From Cyanobacteria bacterium FACHB-DQ100 (GTDB taxonomy: Bacteria > Cyanobacteriota > Cyanobacteriia > Leptolyngbyales > Leptolyngbyaceae), in contig JACJNW010000035.1 in assembly GCA_014695195.1 (NCBI GenBank), forward strand, positions 124,001 through 188,000: DNA of 64,000 bases, read 5' to 3'. Shown here piece by piece: positions 8,025 through 20,050 of this stretch. Made by a program: the position numbers and the translations under genes. The stretch's first letter is position 1, and each line of letters starts with the position of its first letter. The notes below the pieces were generated by a model that saw only the letters and a list, made by a program, of their open reading frames with translations, was not told the origin of the DNA and ran no database searches.

Positions 8025-8972
8025 CTACACCTCTACTTTTTCCTTTTCCAACACGCCTAAAACAGAAGTCTCTTCGGCCACTCGCTTGCCCTCGTTCATC
8101 AGGTAATCGTAAAACGCCTTCGCGATCGCAGAAAGCTGTTTGCCAGAAGGATGCACCACATACCAATACCGCTCGATCGGGAAGCCTTCAACATCCAAAA
8201 TGGCAAGCTGGTTGTTGACTCCTTCCAGCGCTAACGTATGCTTCGACAACACCGATAAACCCATCCCGCCTGCGATCGCTTGTTTAATCGCTTCATTGCT
8301 GCCTAAGTCTAATTTGACTTTCATCGGCAGACCTTGAGCATCAAACAGCTTTTGAACAGCTTTGCGCGTTCCAGACCCTGGTTCCCGCATAATAAACGGC
8401 TCCTCAGAAATCCGAGACAGTGGGATATCCTTCTCTTTAGTGAGCGGATGGTTTCTCGGCGCAAGCACAACCAGCGGATTTTCCATGAAGGGTTCACAGT
8501 GCGCCTCTGAATCGTCCGGAAGCTGACTGAGAATGTACAAATCATCCCGGTTATCCGCCAAGCTATCAAGGACGTACTGATGATTCGTCACCGTCAGCGA
8601 AACATCAATTCCGGGGTAGCGCTGGCAGAACGGACCTAAAATACGCGGAATCACATATTTCGCGGTTGTAACTACAGCAAGGCGAAGCGTTCCTTGTTTA
8701 AGGCCTTTGAGATCGGCGATCGCAATCTGAAACTGCTCTAAACGCTCAAATACATCGCGACAGGTCGAATAAAGTTCTTTTCCGGCTGCTGTCAAATACA
8801 AGCGTTTGCCGACCTGCTCGAACAAGGGCAAACCAACTGTTTTCGATAGCTGTTTTACCTGCATCGAAACCGTGGGCTGAGTCAAAAATAGTTCTTCAGC
8901 AGCGCGGGTAAAACTGCTATGGCGGGCAACCGCTTCAAAAACCTTTAACTGGTGCAATGTAGCATTCTGCAA
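8025..8972 (-). CDS. LysR-type transcriptional regulator of the CbbR/CmpR/NdhR group
   Basis: The protein has an N-terminal winged helix-turn-helix (FTRAAEELFLTQPTVSMQVK) and a C-terminal effector-binding domain with TTAKYVIPRILGPF and the glycine-rich GGMGLSVLS segment. These fit the cyanobacterial regulators of carbon acquisition CmpR, NdhR (CcmR) and RbcR. I set the start at a TTG (8972), because AGGAGA lies 8 bases before it and the product then starts LQNATLHQLK, the usual N-terminus of the group; the upstream ATG at 9041 would add 23 atypical residues. Its place beside the NDH-1 CO2-uptake operons suggests that it controls them, but CmpR and NdhR cannot be told apart by eye. Confidence 0.88.
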   Translation of the reverse strand: MQNATLHQLKVFEAVARHSSFTRAAEELFLTQPTVSMQVKQLSKTVGLPLFEQVGKRLYLTAAGKELYSTCRDVFERLEQFQIAIADLKGLKQGTLRLAVVTTAKYVIPRILGPFCQRYPGIDVSLTVTNHQYVLDSLADNRDDLYILSQLPDDSEAHCEPFMENPLVVLAPRNHPLTKEKDIPLSRISEEPFIMREPGSGTRKAVQKLFDAQGLPMKVKLDLGSNEAIKQAIAGGMGLSVLSKHTLALEGVNNQLAILDVEGFPIERYWYVVHPSGKQLSAIAKAFYDYLMNEGKRVAEETSVLGVLEKEKVEV

Positions 8973-9407
8973 AATAAACTCTCCTGATTTGAGAAACGAT
9001 CGCAACAAACAGTCAAAACTTGCATTTATTCGAGGTAACAAAATCGCTGTATAGAATCAGTTCTATGAAACTTATAGAGAACAGCGATTTTTCCTTATAG
9101 CTTTTGTAGTTATGATAATACACAAGAGCATATGCTCCCTTCCAATTTGGCGTTACACGAATCAGAATTTTGTTGGAGTGAGTTCGCTGTACTCTGTCGC
9201 AGTTTGTAGCTCTACCCCTTCAGGTCTATCGCGTGTAACGCTTTTCTTATGGTTTGCGGGTCATAAATCGAACGCTTTCTCACGCTGGCGAAACGCAACA
9301 GAACTTTAACAACCAAAAGAGCCTTCTCATTGTAAAGTTCAGTGGGGTGACTTCAGTTAAACGTTCTGTCACGCTCTTTCCGTTACCCTTTATCCTCAGA
9401 TCGCACT
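8973..9407. other. 435-bp spacer between the divergent LysR and FAS1 genes
   Basis: The spacer holds the TTG-start ribosome site of the LysR gene (8981-8985), a cluster of AT-rich dyads at 9051-9094 and probably the FAS1 promoter. I see no credible coding sequence; a 65-codon plus-strand open frame at 9112-9309 lacks a ribosome site and any recognisable family feature. Confidence 0.6.
9051..9094. promoter_or_regulatory. possible LysR operator cluster
   Basis: A perfect dyad ATAGAA-TCAG-TTCTAT lies at 9051-9066, and its right half overlaps a second imperfect dyad (TTCTAT ... ATAGAGAA). A CTTATAG word occurs twice within the interval. It begins about 80 bp upstream of the TTG start of the divergently facing LysR gene, a usual place for LysR autoregulatory sites. 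Assignment to this regulator is inference. Confidence 0.4.
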
Positions 9408-9809
9408 ATGGCAGATATTGTTGATATTGCAGTTGGCGCTGGCTCATTTAACACCCTTGTAACCGCAGTAAAGGCGGCAAACTTGGTGGATGCGCTCAAG
9501 AGTCCAGGGCCTTTTACCGTATTCGCGCCGAATGACGATGCCTTTGCAAAGCTTCCACCCGGAACGATTCAAACGCTGGTTCAAAATATTCCGCAACTGT
9601 CCCGAATCCTGACGTTTCACGTTGCTTCAGGGAAGTACATGAAAGCAGACTTGGAGAAATTAGGCTCGGTGACTTCACTTGAAGGATCACCCATTCCATT
9701 TCACTTCGAGGATGGATTTGAGGTAAAGAATGCAACGGTTCTAGCGGCTGACATCGAAGCAGATAACGGGGTCATTCACGTGATTGATACCGTTATTTTG
9801 ATGGGATAA
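9408..9809 (+). CDS. fasciclin (FAS1) domain protein, candidate CupS subunit of NDH-1MS
   Basis: The 133-residue protein is a single FAS1 domain. It has the first FAS1 box ([17 protein letters not shown]) and the second ([15 protein letters not shown]), with a C-terminal [12 protein letters not shown] strand. No signal peptide or membrane segment is visible, so it is probably cytosolic. The small NDH-1MS subunit CupS (Sll1735 of Synechocystis) has a fasciclin-like fold and is normally encoded right after cupA. Here the gene lies 108 bp from the end of cupA but convergent to it. Position therefore favours CupS, whereas orientation does not. A general FAS1 protein remains possible. Confidence 0.75.
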
Positions 9810-9917: not shown

Positions 9918-11222
9918 TTACCGGTAGTCTTGGCTCTGAATCTCACGAATTCGCGACTCAGGGCGTAAGAAACGATCGAGCTGCGATTCAAAGAAGCGTC
10001 GATTTGCCATCAGGTGATTTGGATTAGTGTCATCGAGCGGATACAGCAATGCAGCTCGCAACGCTTGAATTACCGCAGAGGTGACGCAATACATCGATCG
10101 CTGGAAACTGACAGCGAGCTGCACCAGCATATCGTCTTCACCTCGACAATGCTGCTTGTAATATTCCACCAAGTAAGGTGGCAAGAAATGCAACATATCT
10201 TGAGCCAAGAATGTCGGCGGAATTCCAGCGGTTCCAACCGGAAATTTATCTGCGTACAGAACGCCATAATGGAAGTCTTTCTGATCAAATGGAACTTGTC
10301 CTGCTTGGGCGTTATAAGACTTCGTACCTCGGAACGGAGACGTTCTGTAGAACACAGCTTCCACGTAAGGTAAAGCTGCTTCGTATAGCCAAGTAAATCC
10401 TTTCGATTTGGGAATGATTTCGTAGCATTCACCATCAATGTAAACGTGGTGATAGATTGGGCGACCTGCGATCGCGAAGATTCCATTCACCAAGAAGTCC
10501 ATCGCTTGTGGAACCGACGCGATTTTGCCTTCATCATATAAGTCCGACATCTCGAAGAACACCGGAGCCATGACTTCCCAGAACAATCCGAGATTCGCAT
10601 AATAGGAAGCTTGACGGCACTGCTCTAAGAACATATCGGGGAACAGTTTGTACAAGCCTGCCATCACCGGATTCTTGCGGAAGTATGCCTTGATCGCTCG
10701 ATCGGCATTTGCCTTGTACTCATCGCTATCGAGGTACGGATCGAACTGATTCACCGGAACATACATGCCTCGGTGCCACAGCATCGCCCGCATACACTCT
10801 TCCGCGAACTCCATATTGATACGATCGTGCCAGAGGTGATGCAAGGCGCGGGGTAACTTCTTGTTCAGCTCGCCTTTTTCCATGAACTCAATCAGTTCTG
10901 GATGCGCTTCTGCGGTACCGCGCCAAATTCGCAAATCTGCATCGTCGCCTGCATAGTGGTTGTGACGCTTCATGTACTCATCCGAGATGAAATACTTGAA
11001 GACGGGCAGCGGATTGAGGAAGACTTGCTCACCAATGTAGAGCAAATCGCGCCAGTAGAAGTCCATTGGTACTGCATACGCTTTGTACAGTCCAATAATC
11101 TGCATCAGGTTTTCAGGCGTGTCGGGAAGCATTGCGCCGCCTGCTTCGAGGCGATGGATCACTTCCGCAAACGGGTGCTGTGAGGGAGGAAGCTTGGTTT
11201 TAGTGGGAGCGGGCATATTCAT
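9918..11222 (-). CDS. cupA: CO2 hydration protein CupA (ChpY) of NDH-1MS
   Basis: The 434-residue protein matches the ChpX/ChpY family that converts CO2 to bicarbonate at the membrane arm of specialised NDH-1 complexes. It is assigned to CupA rather than CupB by its length, by an extra ~30-residue segment near residues 88-119 that the second homologue in this window lacks, and by its position behind ndhF3 and ndhD3. The HHLWHDRINMEF motif (residues 128-139) holds the His129/Arg134 pair that should correspond to the zinc-site His130 and Arg135 reported for the Thermosynechococcus protein. It acts on the cytosolic face of the thylakoid, bound to NdhF3. It ends in a hairpin convergent to the FAS1 gene. 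Confidence 0.93.
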   Translation of the reverse strand: MNMPAPTKTKLPPSQHPFAEVIHRLEAGGAMLPDTPENLMQIIGLYKAYAVPMDFYWRDLLYIGEQVFLNPLPVFKYFISDEYMKRHNHYAGDDADLRIWRGTAEAHPELIEFMEKGELNKKLPRALHHLWHDRINMEFAEECMRAMLWHRGMYVPVNQFDPYLDSDEYKANADRAIKAYFRKNPVMAGLYKLFPDMFLEQCRQASYYANLGLFWEVMAPVFFEMSDLYDEGKIASVPQAMDFLVNGIFAIAGRPIYHHVYIDGECYEIIPKSKGFTWLYEAALPYVEAVFYRTSPFRGTKSYNAQAGQVPFDQKDFHYGVLYADKFPVGTAGIPPTFLAQDMLHFLPPYLVEYYKQHCRGEDDMLVQLAVSFQRSMYCVTSAVIQALRAALLYPLDDTNPNHLMANRRFFESQLDRFLRPESRIREIQSQDYR

Positions 11223-11254: not shown

Positions 11255-12772
11255 TTAAGAACGATCGACAGAATTAAATGCAACCTGCTCAACTTGAGGG
11301 ACTGCGGCTGTAACGAGTGCTTTCGTTGTTTGCTCACTCCAGCGCACTAACCAAGTCGGCTGGATACCGAGCCAGAAAATCAACGCCGTCAGAACGAGTG
11401 CTGGAACGTACTCAGTAAATTTGACTTTGGGATAGTAGGCGGTGTAGTTGTCGAGCTTTCCGAAACAAGTCCGATTCAGCAGGATGACGAAATAAACCGC
11501 AGTTAACCCCGTTCCAAGGATTGCTACTAAGGTCTGCACCGGGAAGGTTGAGAAGCTACCCTGGAATACAAGAAACTCAGCTACAAATCCAGCAAGTCCC
11601 GGAATTCCAGCACTCGCCATTGCAGCAAGAATGAGCAAGGCGCTGGTGAGGGGTAATCCTCGAATGGGATTGAGTAACCCGTTGAGAATGTCGCGATCGC
11701 GGGTTCCCGTCTTCGATTCGACCAAGCCCACGAGATAGAACAGCAGCGCCAGAATCAAACCATGTGCAATCATTTGAGATACTGCACCGACCATTGCCAG
11801 CGGTGTCAGTGCCGCCGCTCCGAGCAATACATAGCCCATGTGAGCGATTGAGCTAAATGCTACCATCCGCTTAATGTCATGCTGTGCCAGCGCCGACAAT
11901 GCACCGTAGAGAATTGAAACGGCCGCAATGATGGAAAGTCCAGGTGAAATTAGCTTCCACGTTTCTGGGAACATTCCTAGCGCGAATCGAACTAGCCCAT
12001 AGGTTCCAAGCTTCGCTAAGATTCCACCGAGCAAGATAGCAACCGGGGTCGAAGCTTCAACATAAGCATCAGGCAACCAAGTGTGCAGTGGAACCAGCGG
12101 AGTTTTGATCCCAAATCCAATCAGTAAAAGAGTCAACAAAATTAACTGAGCTTTTTGAGGCAGAACCGCTGTGTTGATCTCGCTGTAGTCAAAGCTTGCA
12201 GAATGACCTAACCAAGCGATGCCTAGAAATGCTGCTAAAATCAAAATGCCTGAAATCGCTGTGTAAATCAGGAACTTCATCGCAGCATATTCGCGCTTCT
12301 GTCCGCCCCAAATCAGAATCAGCAGATAGAACGGAACGAGTTCGACTTCATAGAATAAGAAAAACAACAGCAAGTTTTGCGCCAGAAACGCACCCGCCAC
12401 CCCCGAATGCACAATCAAAAGGAGAGAGTAAAACAGCTGCGGACGCTGTAAAGCTTCTCCGGGTTTTAGTCCAACTTCGCTGTTGGAAGCTACCACGATC
12501 GTGATCAAACTGCCCAACGCCACGAGCGGCAGAGACAATCCATCGATCGCCAAACTATAGCTAATTCCCAAAGTTGGAATCCAGGTGTGGTACTCCTGCA
12601 TTTGCATCCCGGGCTGGCTCAAATCGAAGTTGAGCATCAGCACGATCGTCCAAACTAGAACGGCACCGGAAACCGCGATCGCACCCAATTTTGCTTGTTT
12701 TGCAGACAGTTTAGGAATTAACCCAATGACTAACGCACCAATCAGCGGTAGCCAAATCAACGGACTCAGCAT
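11255..12772 (-). CDS. ndhD3: NADH dehydrogenase-like subunit 4, NdhD3 (NDH-1MS)
   Basis: The 505-residue, roughly 14-helix antiporter-like subunit carries the proton-antiporter family core (YEVELVPFYLLILIWGG, PLHTWLPDAYVEASTP, HDIKRMVAFSSIAHMG). It is the fourth-type NdhD associated with CO2 uptake, judged by its place between ndhF3 and cupA; the gaps are 32 bp to cupA and 48 bp to ndhF3, so the three form one operon. The complex uses ferredoxin-derived electrons to pump protons and drive CO2 hydration by CupA. The second ndhD in the window, paired with cupB, is the ndhD4 paralogue. Confidence 0.92.
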   Translation of the reverse strand: MLSPLIWLPLIGALVIGLIPKLSAKQAKLGAIAVSGAVLVWTIVLMLNFDLSQPGMQMQEYHTWIPTLGISYSLAIDGLSLPLVALGSLITIVVASNSEVGLKPGEALQRPQLFYSLLLIVHSGVAGAFLAQNLLLFFLFYEVELVPFYLLILIWGGQKREYAAMKFLIYTAISGILILAAFLGIAWLGHSASFDYSEINTAVLPQKAQLILLTLLLIGFGIKTPLVPLHTWLPDAYVEASTPVAILLGGILAKLGTYGLVRFALGMFPETWKLISPGLSIIAAVSILYGALSALAQHDIKRMVAFSSIAHMGYVLLGAAALTPLAMVGAVSQMIAHGLILALLFYLVGLVESKTGTRDRDILNGLLNPIRGLPLTSALLILAAMASAGIPGLAGFVAEFLVFQGSFSTFPVQTLVAILGTGLTAVYFVILLNRTCFGKLDNYTAYYPKVKFTEYVPALVLTALIFWLGIQPTWLVRWSEQTTKALVTAAVPQVEQVAFNSVDRS

Positions 12773-12820: not shown

Positions 12821-14719
12821 TTAACGCTGAACACTCATGACAATTTCGGTGGTGTTCTGTGGGAAAAGCGAGACTGTGACATGCGAGAGGAATGGCAGAC
12901 TCAGCAATACACTGATCAAGGCAATTCCGAACACGATCGTCAGCATATAGAACTGCGATTGACCGGAGGTGCTGTATCGCAGGTTCCGACCGCTAAACAG
13001 GGTGAGAACACCAAAGAGATTCAGTCCTCCGTCCACGAGGTATTTATCAAACCAGGATGTGATTTGAGAAACGAGCGCAACGACGAAAACAATGCTGCTG
13101 CGATACAGATTCGGAGTGTAGAAGTCATAGGCCAGCAGGTCTTGCAGTCCTTTCCAGGGAAGAACCACGGGTTTTGCAATGTTGTTGTTGGTATAGACGA
13201 TCGCGCTTAAAGCAATGCCTGTAATCGTTGACCAGATCAGCAAAAGTGCAACGTCGGTATTAATGTCTGCCCAACTTGGTAGAAGATCCAAAGCTTCAAG
13301 AATGAGCGGCAGATGCAGCGTAAAGCCCATCATTACAATCATCGGCAGCGCCATCCAGTAGTGAACTTCTGGGGATCGTTGAGCCATTTGCTTTGCTTCA
13401 CCCATAAAGAGTAAACAGAAGACTCGTGTGATTCCAAATGCTGCAAACGCATTCACCAGCAAAATAATTCCAACAATCCAGGGCTGAGTCTCCCAAACGC
13501 CTTGTGCAATTTTTAGCGCCGCCCAAAATCCACCGAACGGAGGGAGCGCGACTAATCCAGCCAAACCAATCAAGAAACTAAAGCCTGAAACCGGACGGCG
13601 TGACCATAAGCCTCCGAGTTGAGTGACATCTTGGGTGATGCTGTTCCAGACGACTGCGCCACCGCCCATGATGATCAATGCAGATGCCAGCGAATGAGTC
13701 AATACGAGCAGGAGAGCCGCTTCGGGTTGCTGAGTTCCGATCGCGATAAACACCAAGCCCATGTAAGCGGTGACTAAATAGGATTGTGTCCGCTTAAGGT
13801 CGATTTGAGCGATCGCAATCAATGAGCCACCGATCGCGCTAACCGCACCGATAAAAACCGTGGTCGCTAGAACCGTTGGAGACAGTGCTAAAACAGGTTC
13901 AAGCTTGTACATCACCCAAGCACCAGTTGCAACTACGACGGAGTTCCGCAAAATTGAAGCTGGAACCGGACCTTCCATTGCTTCATCTAGCCATAAATGC
14001 AAAGGAAATTGAGCGCATTTACCCATTGGGCCTGCAATCAACGCCAAGCCCACGAGGGTGATCACCTTCGGATCAACTTGAGCCGTTTGTGCCCATTCTG
14101 CCAGTTCATTAAAGTTCCAGGTTCCTGCGATCGGCAAAAGCGCAACCACCCCCATTAGCAAGAACAAGTCCCCGATCCGCTTGGTCAGAAAGGCATCTCT
14201 CGCACCTGTCACCACAAGAGACTGATTGAACCAGATGCCGACAAGCAGATACGTGGCAAGCGTTAGGATTTCCAGAATAAAGTAGCTAAAGAAGAGGGAA
14301 TTACATAGAACGAGGGCGGTCATTCCCGCTTCAAACAAGCCGAGCAGCGAGAAGAATCGTGCCCAACCCCAATCCATTTCCATGTAGCCGAAAGCGTAAG
14401 TCTGCGCCAGAAGATTAATTCCAGCAACGAGAACGATCGCACCCACGCTAAGGGTGGAAATCTCGATCGGGATCGTCAGATTCAGTCCCGCAACATCCAG
14501 CCAGGGAATCAAAATCTCCTGGGGAGGCTGTCCCCAAATCGCAGGCAGCGCGAACGCAGCGTGCAAGAATGTTGCCATAGACATGAGCGCGTTGAGGTAT
14601 CCGGATGGGCGCGGTCCAGTCCGTCGAGTAATACCCGGAAACCAAAGCGCAGAAAGGATAGCGCCAAGAAGAGCGTAGCAAGGGATTAACCAAATGCTTT
14701 GAAGCAATGGGTGAGCCAT
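12821..14719 (-). CDS. ndhF3: NADH dehydrogenase-like subunit 5, NdhF3 (NDH-1MS)
   Basis: The 632-residue protein is an NdhF/NuoL-type antiporter subunit with about 16 membrane helices. It includes the FPLHLWLDEAMEGPVPASILRNSVVV segment, where chloroplast-like NdhF has HxWLPDAMEGPTP; the change to LWLDEAMEGP is shared with the NdhF4 protein in this window and marks the CO2-uptake class. It is the first gene of ndhF3-ndhD3-cupA, and a candidate NdhR site lies ~145 bp upstream. This operon is normally induced by low inorganic carbon. Confidence 0.92.
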   Translation of the reverse strand: MAHPLLQSIWLIPCYALLGAILSALWFPGITRRTGPRPSGYLNALMSMATFLHAAFALPAIWGQPPQEILIPWLDVAGLNLTIPIEISTLSVGAIVLVAGINLLAQTYAFGYMEMDWGWARFFSLLGLFEAGMTALVLCNSLFFSYFILEILTLATYLLVGIWFNQSLVVTGARDAFLTKRIGDLFLLMGVVALLPIAGTWNFNELAEWAQTAQVDPKVITLVGLALIAGPMGKCAQFPLHLWLDEAMEGPVPASILRNSVVVATGAWVMYKLEPVLALSPTVLATTVFIGAVSAIGGSLIAIAQIDLKRTQSYLVTAYMGLVFIAIGTQQPEAALLLVLTHSLASALIIMGGGAVVWNSITQDVTQLGGLWSRRPVSGFSFLIGLAGLVALPPFGGFWAALKIAQGVWETQPWIVGIILLVNAFAAFGITRVFCLLFMGEAKQMAQRSPEVHYWMALPMIVMMGFTLHLPLILEALDLLPSWADINTDVALLLIWSTITGIALSAIVYTNNNIAKPVVLPWKGLQDLLAYDFYTPNLYRSSIVFVVALVSQITSWFDKYLVDGGLNLFGVLTLFSGRNLRYSTSGQSQFYMLTIVFGIALISVLLSLPFLSHVTVSLFPQNTTEIVMSVQR

Positions 14720-15082: not shown

Positions 15083-15535
15083 CTATCTCTCAAGAATCCG
15101 CACTTGCCGAGGATCGACGCTGAGCGTAACGCGATCGCCATATTTCAGATCGAAAATGAGCGGAGCGATCACTTCTACGATCGACGGATTCTGAAAATGC
15201 CCGATTTTTGTCTCTGGATGCGGATAGTAGATCAGGCTGTCGAAGCTTTTGTTCTGATGGATAATTTGGCAGGGCGTAAAAGAAAAATCCTCCGGCTCAA
15301 ATCCTTCCGCCCATTGCACATTTCTAAATGTATGTAGAGGCGATATTAGTTCAAATTCGTTCGGGCTGATATTGACGTTGAGAGTACCCGGAAAAAATGG
15401 TGTGAGATCGAGTCCCAACTGCTTGAAAAATGGAGTTTGCATCTCGATCGTGCCTTTAGGATAGGGGCTGCTGTTTGTTCTGCCCGATGCAACCCCGTAT
15501 CCTGCTTGAATGATGCCGCCAATCTGTTGATTCAT
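15083..15535 (-). CDS. small protein resembling CTP-dependent riboflavin kinase (DUF120-like), coupled to cupB
   Basis: The 150-residue protein has, in order, GGIIQAGYGVASGRT, a KGTIEMQTPFFKQLGLDLTPFFPGTLNV segment and a C-terminal IVEVIAPLIFDLKYGDRVTL. This order resembles the archaeal CTP-dependent riboflavin kinase fold (G-x-V-x-SG-x-G, PGTLNV, LEIIAP...DGD-x-V). I know no characterised cyanobacterial member, so activity is unproven. Its ATG overlaps the cupB stop codon as ATGA, so it is the last gene of ndhF4-ndhD4-cupB and translationally coupled to it. Cyanobacteria normally make FMN with bifunctional RibF, so a kinase role would be redundant; a nucleotide- or flavin-binding accessory role is possible. 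Confidence 0.7.
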   Translation of the reverse strand: MNQQIGGIIQAGYGVASGRTNSSPYPKGTIEMQTPFFKQLGLDLTPFFPGTLNVNISPNEFELISPLHTFRNVQWAEGFEPEDFSFTPCQIIHQNKSFDSLIYYPHPETKIGHFQNPSIVEVIAPLIFDLKYGDRVTLSVDPRQVRILER

Positions 15536-16671
15536 AAAACGTCGCAAGCTTGAAAACTAATCAGGCGTGACTCTATTAGTTTATCCATCCAGCCTTCTAA
15601 GTATTTGCGATTTTCCTCCTGTTCCTTTGGATCTTGGGTGTTGATTTCATGAGGAGCCAATCCCAAAATCGCGGCTGTTGTCACGCAGAACATCGATTTC
15701 TGGAAGCTAATACAGATTTTGACACGCATATCACTTTCGCCTCTGAGCGTTCGGCGGTAAAAATCAAGCAGGTATTCCGGCAGATAATGCGTCATGTCTT
15801 GCATCAACAACGTGGGTGGAATTCCACCGCCGCCAACCGGTAATGGATCCGCATACAGTGCACCATAGGAGAATCGTTCTTGCTCTAAGGGGATTTGTCG
15901 CGCTTGAGCATTGTAAGAGACGGTTCCCATGAACGGAAAAGATTTGAAGAATACCGCTTCCACATAAGGCACTGCTGTATCCATCAAAAACTGTAAGCCT
16001 GCGGATTCTGGAATGATTTCGTAAGTACGATCGCCAATCTTCACGGCATAAGTAATGGGTAGTGCTGCATTGTTCACCAATCCCGCTTTCACATGATTGA
16101 CGACATCTTGAATGGTTTTAATTTCACCGTTGTCATAGCGATCGGACAGATTGAGAAACATATCGCTCATCACCGTCCAAAACTGCCCAAGTGCACTGTA
16201 ATAACAAGACATTCGCACTTGTTCCAGCAGAAAATTTGGGAAAATTTGCGACAGATTTCGGATAAAGAAGTTACTTTTGATCTTGGCTTGAATTGCTTGT
16301 TGTGCGCGATCGATAAATTCGCAGCTATCGACATACTGATCTAAGCCACCACCGCCGTGCCACAACATAGCTTTCATGCAGTATTCGGAGAATTCGTAGT
16401 TAATTCGATCGTGCCACCAATGCTTTAAAAGCTTCTTCGTTGAAACGTCTCCGTCGAAATACTTGAAAAATGGAAACAACACTAAAAACTGATTCTCAGC
16501 AATGAATTCGAGATTGCGAGAATAAGCGCCTAAAACAACGCCATAGCTTTTAAGAACGCCAACGACTTCAATCAAGTTCGTGGGCGATTCCGGCAAAAGT
16601 GCGCCGCCTGACTCGATGCGCTCAATGATATCGGCTAACGAGTGCGAGGATTTTGAACGTGCGACAACCAT
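15532..16671 (-). CDS. cupB: CO2 hydration protein CupB (ChpX) of NDH-1MS'
   Basis: The 379-residue protein is the second ChpX/ChpY homologue. It shares with CupA the KHWWHDRINYEF motif (His84 and Arg89 being the expected zinc-site pair), SYNARQIPLEQ-type loops and a GIPPTLLMQDM segment, but lacks the ~30-residue insertion near position 80-110. It follows ndhD4 by only 2 bp and overlaps the next gene by four bases, so it is in the middle of a tightly coupled operon. The family role is constitutive, lower-affinity CO2 hydration linked to NDH-1 proton pumping. Confidence 0.93.
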   Translation of the reverse strand: MVVARSKSSHSLADIIERIESGGALLPESPTNLIEVVGVLKSYGVVLGAYSRNLEFIAENQFLVLFPFFKYFDGDVSTKKLLKHWWHDRINYEFSEYCMKAMLWHGGGGLDQYVDSCEFIDRAQQAIQAKIKSNFFIRNLSQIFPNFLLEQVRMSCYYSALGQFWTVMSDMFLNLSDRYDNGEIKTIQDVVNHVKAGLVNNAALPITYAVKIGDRTYEIIPESAGLQFLMDTAVPYVEAVFFKSFPFMGTVSYNAQARQIPLEQERFSYGALYADPLPVGGGGIPPTLLMQDMTHYLPEYLLDFYRRTLRGESDMRVKICISFQKSMFCVTTAAILGLAPHEINTQDPKEQEENRKYLEGWMDKLIESRLISFQACDVL

Positions 16672-16673
16672 AG

Positions 16674-18194
16674 TTACTCCAACGGTAAGACCGAAACGGG
16701 ATGAGATTGAGTTGGGGCGGAATGAACTGCGATCGTTGGATATTCGCTCAACATTGCAGTCGTTGTCGTCTCAGTCCAATGCACCAGCCAACTGGGTTGC
16801 AAACCCAACAGCACAATCAAAACCGCCACCGCAATAGAAGGAATTCGTTCCGACCAAGACACCGGTGGCAGATTTGCAAACTGATCCGGCAGCCGCCCAA
16901 AGAAGGTGCGATTCACCAATAGCAAAAAGTAAACCGCCGTCAAACCTGTGCCAATCATACTGAGCAGTGTTTGCACTGGGAATGCGATGAAACTTCCCCG
17001 GAATATCAGAAACTCCGAAATAAACCCAACCATTCCTGGAATTCCAGCACTCGCCATCACACCCAAAATCATCAAACTACCGACGATCGGTAAGCCTCGC
17101 TCTGGAGTTAACAATCCTTTCAAAACGGTAATGTCACGGGTTCCTGTTTTGGTATAGACTACACCGACTAGGGCAAATAGCAGCGCGGAGATCAAACCGT
17201 GGCTCACCATCTGGAACACACAGCCCAACAGACTTAGCGGTGTTGCCGCTGCGGCAGCGAGAAGAATAAATCCCATGTGCCCGACTGAACTGTAAGCCAC
17301 CATCTTTTTCATATCGGTTTGAGCGATCGCAGTAAAGGCACCAAACAACACACTCACGACTGCCCAAATCGCCAGGTATGGAGCCAATACCGCCCAAGCT
17401 TGCGGAAATAACTGCAATCCAAACCGCAACAACCCATAAGTTCCAAGCTTCAACAATACCCCTGCAAGCAGCACTGAGATTGGCGTAGAAGCTTCAACGT
17501 GAGCATCGGGCAACCAAGTATGTAGCGGAAACAGCGGGATCTTGATCCCGAATCCGATTAGAATCGCGCCCAGCAATATCACTTGTGATGTTAACGGCAG
17601 TGCTTCGGTTAATGCTGGGTTGTATTCAAACGAGGTTGCGCCGCTTAACCAAGTTAAACCTAGAAATGCAATTAGAATTAATATTCCTGAAACCGCCGTG
17701 TAGATAAGAAACTTCGTCGAAGCGTACCCCCGCTTTGCTCCTCCCCAAATTCCAATCAGTAGATAAAGTGGAATGAGTTCCAACTCATAGAACAAGAAGA
17801 ACAACAATAAGTTATGAGCGAGAAATGCTCCAGCAACGGCAGCATTAATCACTAAAATCAGCAAGTAATAAAGCCGAGGACGTTGAACGGCTGGGGGCGT
17901 GGAAAACAGCGCAATCAGGGTTAAAAAGCAATTCAGAACAATCAGCGGCAGCGACAAACCGTCTAACCCTAATCGGTAAGTCAGTCCCAGTGGTTCCAGC
18001 CAGGGCAGATCTTCTTGAAACTGAAGTCCGATATTAATCACATCAAACTGAGTCGCAATCCAAAGCGACACAGCTAAGGCAATGCTAACGGTTGCGATCG
18101 CTGTTCTTCTCAAAGATTGATCGGAGATCGAACCCGGCAACAGTCCAATCACGATCGCACCCAAAATCGGTATCCAAATCAACGCACTCAACAT
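16674..18194 (-). CDS. ndhD4: NADH dehydrogenase-like subunit 4, NdhD4 (NDH-1MS')
   Basis: The 506-residue antiporter-like subunit has the same core as NdhD3 (YELELIPLYLLIGIWGG, PLHTWLPDAHVEASTP, TDMKKMVAYSSVGHMG). It is assigned as NdhD4 because it sits between ndhF4 and cupB. The spacing is 20 bp to ndhF4 and 2 bp to cupB. It belongs to the proton-translocating arm of the constitutive CO2-uptake complex in the thylakoid membrane. Confidence 0.92.
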   Translation of the reverse strand: MLSALIWIPILGAIVIGLLPGSISDQSLRRTAIATVSIALAVSLWIATQFDVINIGLQFQEDLPWLEPLGLTYRLGLDGLSLPLIVLNCFLTLIALFSTPPAVQRPRLYYLLILVINAAVAGAFLAHNLLLFFLFYELELIPLYLLIGIWGGAKRGYASTKFLIYTAVSGILILIAFLGLTWLSGATSFEYNPALTEALPLTSQVILLGAILIGFGIKIPLFPLHTWLPDAHVEASTPISVLLAGVLLKLGTYGLLRFGLQLFPQAWAVLAPYLAIWAVVSVLFGAFTAIAQTDMKKMVAYSSVGHMGFILLAAAAATPLSLLGCVFQMVSHGLISALLFALVGVVYTKTGTRDITVLKGLLTPERGLPIVGSLMILGVMASAGIPGMVGFISEFLIFRGSFIAFPVQTLLSMIGTGLTAVYFLLLVNRTFFGRLPDQFANLPPVSWSERIPSIAVAVLIVLLGLQPSWLVHWTETTTTAMLSEYPTIAVHSAPTQSHPVSVLPLE

Positions 18195-18214: not shown

Positions 18215-20050
18215 TTACCACATCGACCAAGTTAGAAGCGCACCTAACAAGCCAACCACAAGCGAAATGGTCAGCATATAAGCTTGCGATCGTCCTGAAG
18301 CGCTATATTTCAAAGTCTCACCGCTAAAGAGCGAAGCTAATCCGACGAAGTTGACTACTCCATCCACGATGTAACGATCGCACCAGGCGCTAAATTGAGC
18401 GATCGCGTTTACAACCAAAACCACACTGACGCGATATAGACGATCCACGTAAAAGTCATACGCCAGCAAATCTTGGAAAAATCGGAGCGGAGCTTGGACG
18501 GGACGAATCCAGGCATAGTTCAACGTGATTGCAAATCCCAACGCTGTACCCGCGATTCCAGACAGAATCAACAGTCCTGCTGCTGACCAATTCATAATCT
18601 CCCAATGAGGCAATAGGTTCAGAGTATTGAGGATGATCGGAATCATCAAGGTTAAAACACTTAGTGACACCATAGGCACAGCCATCAGCCAGGGAACTTC
18701 TGGAGCGCGTCGAGTTTTTGGCTGCACCTTACCCATGAACACTAATCGGTAAACTCTCGTCAGGTTTAGAGCGGTTAGTGCATTCACCGCCAGCACGACC
18801 ACGACTAGCCAAGGCTTGTCATACCAAAAATCATCAATTCCGCGCTGCAATGCCCAGAACCCACCCAGCGGAAACAGCCCCACTAATCCGGCTGAACCTG
18901 TTAGAAACGCAGTGGTTGTCGCAGGCATTTTTGACCACAAGCCGCCCATTTCTGTGATGTCTTGAGAACTGGTGGTCATAATGATTGATCCGGTACTCAT
19001 GAACAGAAGCGCTTTTGCGATCGCATGAGCAAACAACAGAATGAAGGCGAAATCCGTCCAGCCAATGCCGACCGCAATAAAGACTAATCCGAGATAAGCA
19101 CTGGTGGAATGAGACAATGCCCGCTTCATGTCAATTTGAGCGAGAGAAACCAGAGAAGCCCCGATCGCAGTCATCGTTCCTAAAGTCACCAGAGCAGTGG
19201 AAGCGACAGGCGACAACGTAACGATCGGCTGAAGCCTGATCAATACGTAAGCGCCACATCCAACGACAACTGAGTTCCGTAAAATCGATGCAGGATTCGG
19301 ACCTTCCATTGCTTCATCCAGCCAGAGATGTAGCGGAAACTGGGCACACTTCCCAATTGGGCCTGAAATCAACGCCAGTCCCAGTAACGCCGACACCACA
19401 GGCGACAGTTCTGCCTTTTCTGCCCAATCATAAAGGCCCGGAAAATCTAAGCTTCCAGAAAGCGCGGACAGTGCCACAACACCCATCAACAGCAACACAT
19501 CTCCAACCCGCTTGGTCAGAAACGCATCTCGTGCCGCAGTCACAACAAGTGGTTGAGCATACCAAAACCCTACCAACAAATAAGTTGAGAGCGTCAGCAT
19601 TTCTAGAAGTGCATAGGTCAGAAAGAGCGAATCACTCACTGCCAATCCGCTCATTGCACCTTCAAAAAATCCCATCAATCCAAAAAATCGCGCCAGCGCC
19701 CAGTCTTTCTCCATGTACCCCAGCGCAAACACCTGAGCAAACAGACTCAAGCCCGTCACCAGCTCCATTGCACCAACACTGATTGGAGAAAGCTCCAACG
19801 AAAACGTCAAATCTAAATCTGCTGCCTGCAGCCAGTGAAAGGCGAAATGCTGCGGTTCCTGTCCCCAGACTGCGCCAAACAGTGCGATTCCATGCACAAA
19901 CGCTAGCACAGTCGTTAATACATTAAGATAAGCCGCAGGACGAGGACCTGTCTTCCGAATCAGTCCCACAGACCAAGGCAGCGTCAAAAATGCACCCAGA
20001 AGTCCGTAGCAAGGAATCCACCAGCTTGTTTCGATTAGGGACTGCTGCAT
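18215..20050 (-). CDS. ndhF4: NADH dehydrogenase-like subunit 5, NdhF4 (NDH-1MS')
   Basis: The 611-residue NuoL-type subunit shares the LWLDEAMEGPNPASILRNSVVV segment with NdhF3 and has about 16 membrane helices and a C-terminal amphipathic region. It begins the operon ndhF4-ndhD4-cupB plus the riboflavin-kinase-like gene. Its promoter lies in the 487-bp spacer shared with the divergent ccm operon. The close tandem placement of the ndhF3 and ndhF4 operons in the same orientation suggests they arose by, or were kept as, one unit. Confidence 0.92.
   Translation of the reverse strand: MQQSLIETSWWIPCYGLLGAFLTLPWSVGLIRKTGPRPAAYLNVLTTVLAFVHGIALFGAVWGQEPQHFAFHWLQAADLDLTFSLELSPISVGAMELVTGLSLFAQVFALGYMEKDWALARFFGLMGFFEGAMSGLAVSDSLFLTYALLEMLTLSTYLLVGFWYAQPLVVTAARDAFLTKRVGDVLLLMGVVALSALSGSLDFPGLYDWAEKAELSPVVSALLGLALISGPIGKCAQFPLHLWLDEAMEGPNPASILRNSVVVGCGAYVLIRLQPIVTLSPVASTALVTLGTMTAIGASLVSLAQIDMKRALSHSTSAYLGLVFIAVGIGWTDFAFILLFAHAIAKALLFMSTGSIIMTTSSQDITEMGGLWSKMPATTTAFLTGSAGLVGLFPLGGFWALQRGIDDFWYDKPWLVVVVLAVNALTALNLTRVYRLVFMGKVQPKTRRAPEVPWLMAVPMVSLSVLTLMIPIILNTLNLLPHWEIMNWSAAGLLILSGIAGTALGFAITLNYAWIRPVQAPLRFFQDLLAYDFYVDRLYRVSVVLVVNAIAQFSAWCDRYIVDGVVNFVGLASLFSGETLKYSASGRSQAYMLTISLVVGLLGALLTWSMW

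Follow-up and report, generated by a model that had tools for sequence, protein, structure and literature searches.

Two riboflavin kinases of known structure, the cytidine triphosphate (CTP)-dependent enzyme MJ0056 from Methanocaldococcus jannaschii (PDB 2vbv, 2vbu, 2oyn and 2p3m; PF01982) and RbkR from Thermoplasma acidophilum (PDB 3cta and 5trd), in which a winged helix is combined with a riboflavin kinase domain, share their kinase fold with a 150-residue protein encoded directly downstream of cupB in Cyanobacteria bacterium FACHB-DQ100. The gene, referred to here as gene X, is located in a window of 64,000 nucleotides (positions 124,001 to 188,000 of contig JACJNW010000035.1), to which all coordinates below refer. 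RibF, the bacterial flavokinase/flavin adenine dinucleotide synthetase (PF01687), contains a distantly similar β-barrel (Z ~5 to 6) and belongs to a different family. A gene in this position is known from Leptolyngbya boryana CZ1, where the hypothetical-protein gene Q2T42_08970 overlaps cupB by 8 bp (PMC10536570); as judged from the published description, this overlap is the same as that at four of the loci compared here, and Q2T42_08970 is very probably the same gene as X. The literature searched contained no mention of cupB together with a riboflavin kinase. The initial annotation of the window had regarded a flavin- or nucleotide-binding subunit in the CO2-uptake operon as not described. 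The overlap with cupB was known from the L. boryana report, of which the fold is not part; within the literature searched, the fold, the family and the distribution of gene X appear to be new.

Fold and family of the gene X product

The gene, its overlap with cupB and the codons of its presumed metal site are positioned as follows:

15083..15535, (-) strand, gene X, DUF120-like/CTP-dependent-riboflavin-kinase fold, 150 aa (open reading frame, Pfam, AlphaFold model, fold comparison)
15532..15535, (-) strand, ATGA overlap of the X start and the cupB stop (sequence)
15377..15385, (-) strand, codons T51-L52-N53, equivalent of T43-x-N45 of MJ0056 (alignment of 144 relatives)
15173..15175, (-) strand, codon E121, which corresponds to E107 in the EIIEIIAP stretch of MJ0056 (alignment)

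The only Pfam family matched by the gene X product is PF01982, with an E-value of 5.2e-5 and 23.6 bits, just under the curated cut-off of 25, and no other protein of the host genome matches this family. The NCBIfam model of the archaeal riboflavin kinase gave an E-value of 1e-4, far under its family cut-off. Neither phmmer with the X sequence alone nor hmmsearch with a 15-sequence profile retrieved a relative from the PDB; the relationship to the kinases surfaced only from Pfam, profile-profile and fold comparisons. A profile of 77 X sequences matched MJ0056 and RbkR with an E-value of 1.7e-5 and a probability of 78%. The AlphaFold (AF2) model of the protein is of high confidence (predicted local distance difference test score, pLDDT, 94.1; predicted template modelling score, pTM, 0.89), and a Foldseek search with it recovered the MJ0056 entries with E-values of ~4e-7 to 1e-6, which were the only hits below 0.001. 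A second structure aligner superimposed the model on MJ0056 with bound CDP and flavin mononucleotide (FMN) with a Z-score of 14.6 and a root-mean-square deviation of 2.1 Å over 125 residues; the Z-score was 11.7 for RbkR and 6.9 for the best other fold.

The modelled protein thus has the cradle-loop barrel fold of MJ0056. The motifs from which a DUF120-type, riboflavin-kinase-like protein had been proposed are indeed present, namely GYGVASG (strictly G-x-G-x-A-S-G), PGTLNV and EVIAP..YGDRV, and the Pfam, profile-profile, model and fold matches together confirm that proposal at the level of the fold. It does not extend to the family, since the Pfam score is under the cut-off and neither the glycine-rich loop nor the LRE loop is kept; the protein is therefore not classed as a CTP-dependent riboflavin kinase. 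It represents a distinct, undescribed bacterial subfamily of the DUF120 fold with the same metal site. A widespread bacterial family of hypothetical proteins is thereby placed in the fold of the archaeal riboflavin kinases.

Conservation of the presumed active site

The gene X product is ~23% identical to MJ0056. Both proteins have the GTLN magnesium motif, the glutamate of EVIAP/EIIAP, a GD pair near the end and, apparently, a conserved proline ahead of the T-loop. Residues T43 and N45 of MJ0056, which according to its structure we take to hold the magnesium ion, correspond to T51 and N53. In 144 distinct relatives of X from several phyla, on which all conservation figures are based, both residues have a conservation of 1.00, and E121 has one of 0.99. 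After rounding, 1.00 was also reached by G12, A16, S17, Q33, W75, E82, F84, S85, F86, Y103, P105, T109 and K110. The family has an invariant set of its own, W75, E82, FSF and YYPHPETK, which is seen neither in MJ0056 nor in RbkR and is what an enzyme acting on a single conserved substrate would be expected to show.

In contrast, the nucleotide side differs from that of MJ0056. The glycine-rich loop GxGEGR[YF] is not kept, being replaced by GxGVASG with a 12-residue insert after GxG, and the LRE loop following EIIAP is deleted. A candidate counterpart of the P-x-x-T motif of MJ0056 (T99) is PHPETK of X with the invariant T109, which is one residue longer; the aligner instead pairs T99 with H113. 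RbkR likewise keeps the GTLN motif and the conserved glutamate, and X differs from it on the nucleotide side in the same way as from MJ0056 and furthermore lacks its DNA-binding domain.

Among the X copies of marine Synechococcus type, ten (L172-L175, L178-L180 and L182-L184) carry a C-terminal extension of 65-70 residues (LLEFLKFRVL...ARxLYTE) that has no Pfam match; copies L176, L177 and L181 are without it. A domain fusion was considered, but the extension was found neither in the host genome nor in 19 relatives, in a search that had no positive control.

Distribution of gene X and its coupling to cupB

The start codon of gene X (15535-15533) overlaps the stop codon of cupB (15534-15532) in an ATGA, as originally annotated. 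Gene X is kept in 8/8 genomes of the genus to which the window belongs, and comparison with the seven congeners gave a ratio of nonsynonymous to synonymous substitutions (dN/dS) of 0.07-0.14; X is therefore a protein under purifying selection and not a chance open reading frame. In the other seven genomes, the overlap at the junction is again ATGA in one, 8 nt in four, 17 nt in one and 1 nt (TAATG) in one, and the coupling of X to cupB in this genus is thus tight. In Myxacorys the ATG of X is situated 30 nt downstream of the cupB stop codon, counted from its first base.

Gene X was found in 124 of 388 cyanobacterial genomes, and the Cup protein (ChpXY, PF10216) in 358 of them. X is present in 123 of the ChpXY-positive genomes and absent from the other 235; of the 30 ChpXY-negative genomes only one (G281) contains it. 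Outside the cyanobacteria, X occurs in 14/151 Chloroflexota and 2/101 Deinococcota genomes (Thermaceae), as well as in one KSB1 and one Alteromonadaceae metagenome-assembled genome, where binning errors are possible. All 18 non-cyanobacterial carriers tested lack ChpXY. The family thus spans about one-third of the sampled cyanobacteria, together with Chloroflexota and Thermaceae, with an intact metal site and a rebuilt nucleotide side. No relatives of X were found in viral contigs, phages or PHROGs. One relative, annotated as a hypothetical protein, is encoded on a mobilizable Pseudanabaena plasmid (NZ_AP017562.1, 61979-62383), a possible route of transfer.

The position directly after cupB is confined to the genus of the window and to a neighbouring genus including Myxacorys, so the arrangement recurs in other genomes but not beyond these two groups. 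The cupB-linked copies form one clade (Shimodaira-Hasegawa-like approximate likelihood ratio test, SH-aLRT, 89) amid free-standing copies; most carriers have X far from the cup genes, with neighbours that change by lineage. In one genome of the neighbouring genus (G009; L023 1-320), the X sequence following an intact cupB contains stop codons and its homology is lost past GLDL, so cupB there does without X. The sequence after this degraded copy is unrelated and may be a mobile element.

A search for a conserved neighbour that could name the substrate yielded only lineage-bound genes, such as those for TerC-, Fmt- and TldE-like proteins in marine Synechococcus and, in Crocosphaera, for a Rieske-like protein; these names were given by inspection. 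The glutathione-reductase-like neighbours of X in Calothrix and Nodosilinea are non-orthologous, with ~28% identity.

Possible functions and genomic surroundings

The fold, the conserved metal site, the purifying selection, the distribution and the gene overlap form the observed basis for a functional proposal. Gene X probably encodes a soluble Mg-dependent small-molecule kinase of an undescribed DUF120 subfamily; the gene would have been captured behind cupB without its product being part of NDH-1MS'. Such a Mg2+-dependent phosphotransferase would use a nucleotide, not necessarily CTP, as phosphate donor, and its substrate may be some small molecule that takes the place of riboflavin or is used in addition to it. 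The enzyme would act on its own, outside the NDH-1MS' complex; in the Leptolyngbya-type cyanobacteria its gene would have joined the cupB transcription unit in a single lineage, where it is probably co-translated with cupB. Placing the family in this fold opens the way to a specific enzyme assay and corrects the attractive notion of a missing CO2-uptake subunit.

Some observations weigh against this proposal. With GxGEGRY and LRE, which lie on the nucleotide side of the archaeal kinases, changed or missing, catalysis has possibly been lost or the donor is a different one. Furthermore, three additional cyanobacterial groups have cup genes in the vicinity of X, somewhat above chance: in a Nodosilinea subclade (L097 8001-8865, L103 3705-4775, L062, L065 and L156) X is convergent to cupS-cupA, with an X-cupS gap as small as ~30 nt in Nodosilinea-like genomes; in Leptolyngbya DLM2.Bin27 it is near cupB, and in one Acaryochloris genome it follows cupB at 3 kb. 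Outside the genus of the window, X and a cup gene are no more than 10 kb apart at 4 of 60 sampled loci, compared with ~0.6 expected by our genome-size-based estimate. As three of these four loci belong to one genus and are not independent, the enrichment is no more than suggestive; the near-cup positions may reflect some loose link between X and CO2 uptake. A small-molecule kinase that acts on a new substrate with a donor other than CTP, and the product of which supports inorganic-carbon uptake, would explain why four separate cyanobacterial arrangements have X beside cup genes, but we consider this extended version of the proposal a long shot.

A role of X as an accessory factor of NDH-1MS', in assembly, as a cofactor or in sensing, had been suggested by the initial annotation; the sensing could be that of flavin or nucleotide. 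The overlap of 1 to 17 nt in all eight genomes of the genus, the close spacing in Myxacorys, the purifying selection and the near-cup loci just described would suit such a role; a function as subunit, cofactor or assembly factor is not supported, given the 235 Cup-bearing cyanobacteria that lack X, the tested non-cyanobacterial carriers devoid of any Cup protein and the pseudogene beside the intact cupB of G009. Most carriers, moreover, have X at a distance from the cup genes, and the cupB-linked copies have the same invariant residues as the rest of the family and show no sign of adaptation to Cup. A role restricted to the Leptolyngbya type, perhaps recruited after the capture, is therefore quite unlikely. 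That X is a true riboflavin kinase alongside RibF, converting riboflavin to FMN like its archaeal relatives, is unlikely as well, although its closest solved relatives are riboflavin kinases of the same fold and the magnesium-site residues and E121 are kept. The host has a separate full RibF gene (PF01687, E 1e-44), which would make a second source of FMN redundant, and both the scores under the family cut-offs and the combination of own invariants with the missing LRE loop argue against this identity. The loss or rebuilding of GxGEGRY and LRE would also agree with a domain that has kept the fold, lost kinase activity and serves in ligand binding or regulation without catalysis. However, T51, N53, T109, K110 and E121 vary little or not at all among 144 divergent sequences; a dead active site would not usually be so conserved, which renders this explanation very unlikely.

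The genes surrounding X in the window are the following:

15532..16671, (-) strand, cupB (ChpXY, PF10216), directly upstream of X (domain search)
16674..18194, (-) strand, ndhD4
18215..20050, (-) strand, ndhF4
12821..14719, (-) strand, ndhF3, which opens the next (cupA) operon, 363 nt downstream of X
11255..12772, (-) strand, ndhD3
9918..11222, (-) strand, cupA (ChpXY; domain search)
9408..9809, (+) strand, cupS-like fasciclin-domain gene, convergent to cupA (domain search)
8025..9041, (-) strand, LysR-type regulator (domain search)

Between 8025 and 20050, the operons ndhF4-ndhD4-cupB-X and ndhF3-ndhD3-cupA are thus arranged in tandem on the same strand, together with the cupS-like and LysR-type genes. 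The position of the LysR-type gene suits NdhR/CcmR, the name by which it may tentatively be called. Both CO2-uptake clusters adjoin in Leptolyngbya boryana CZ1 too (PMC10536570).
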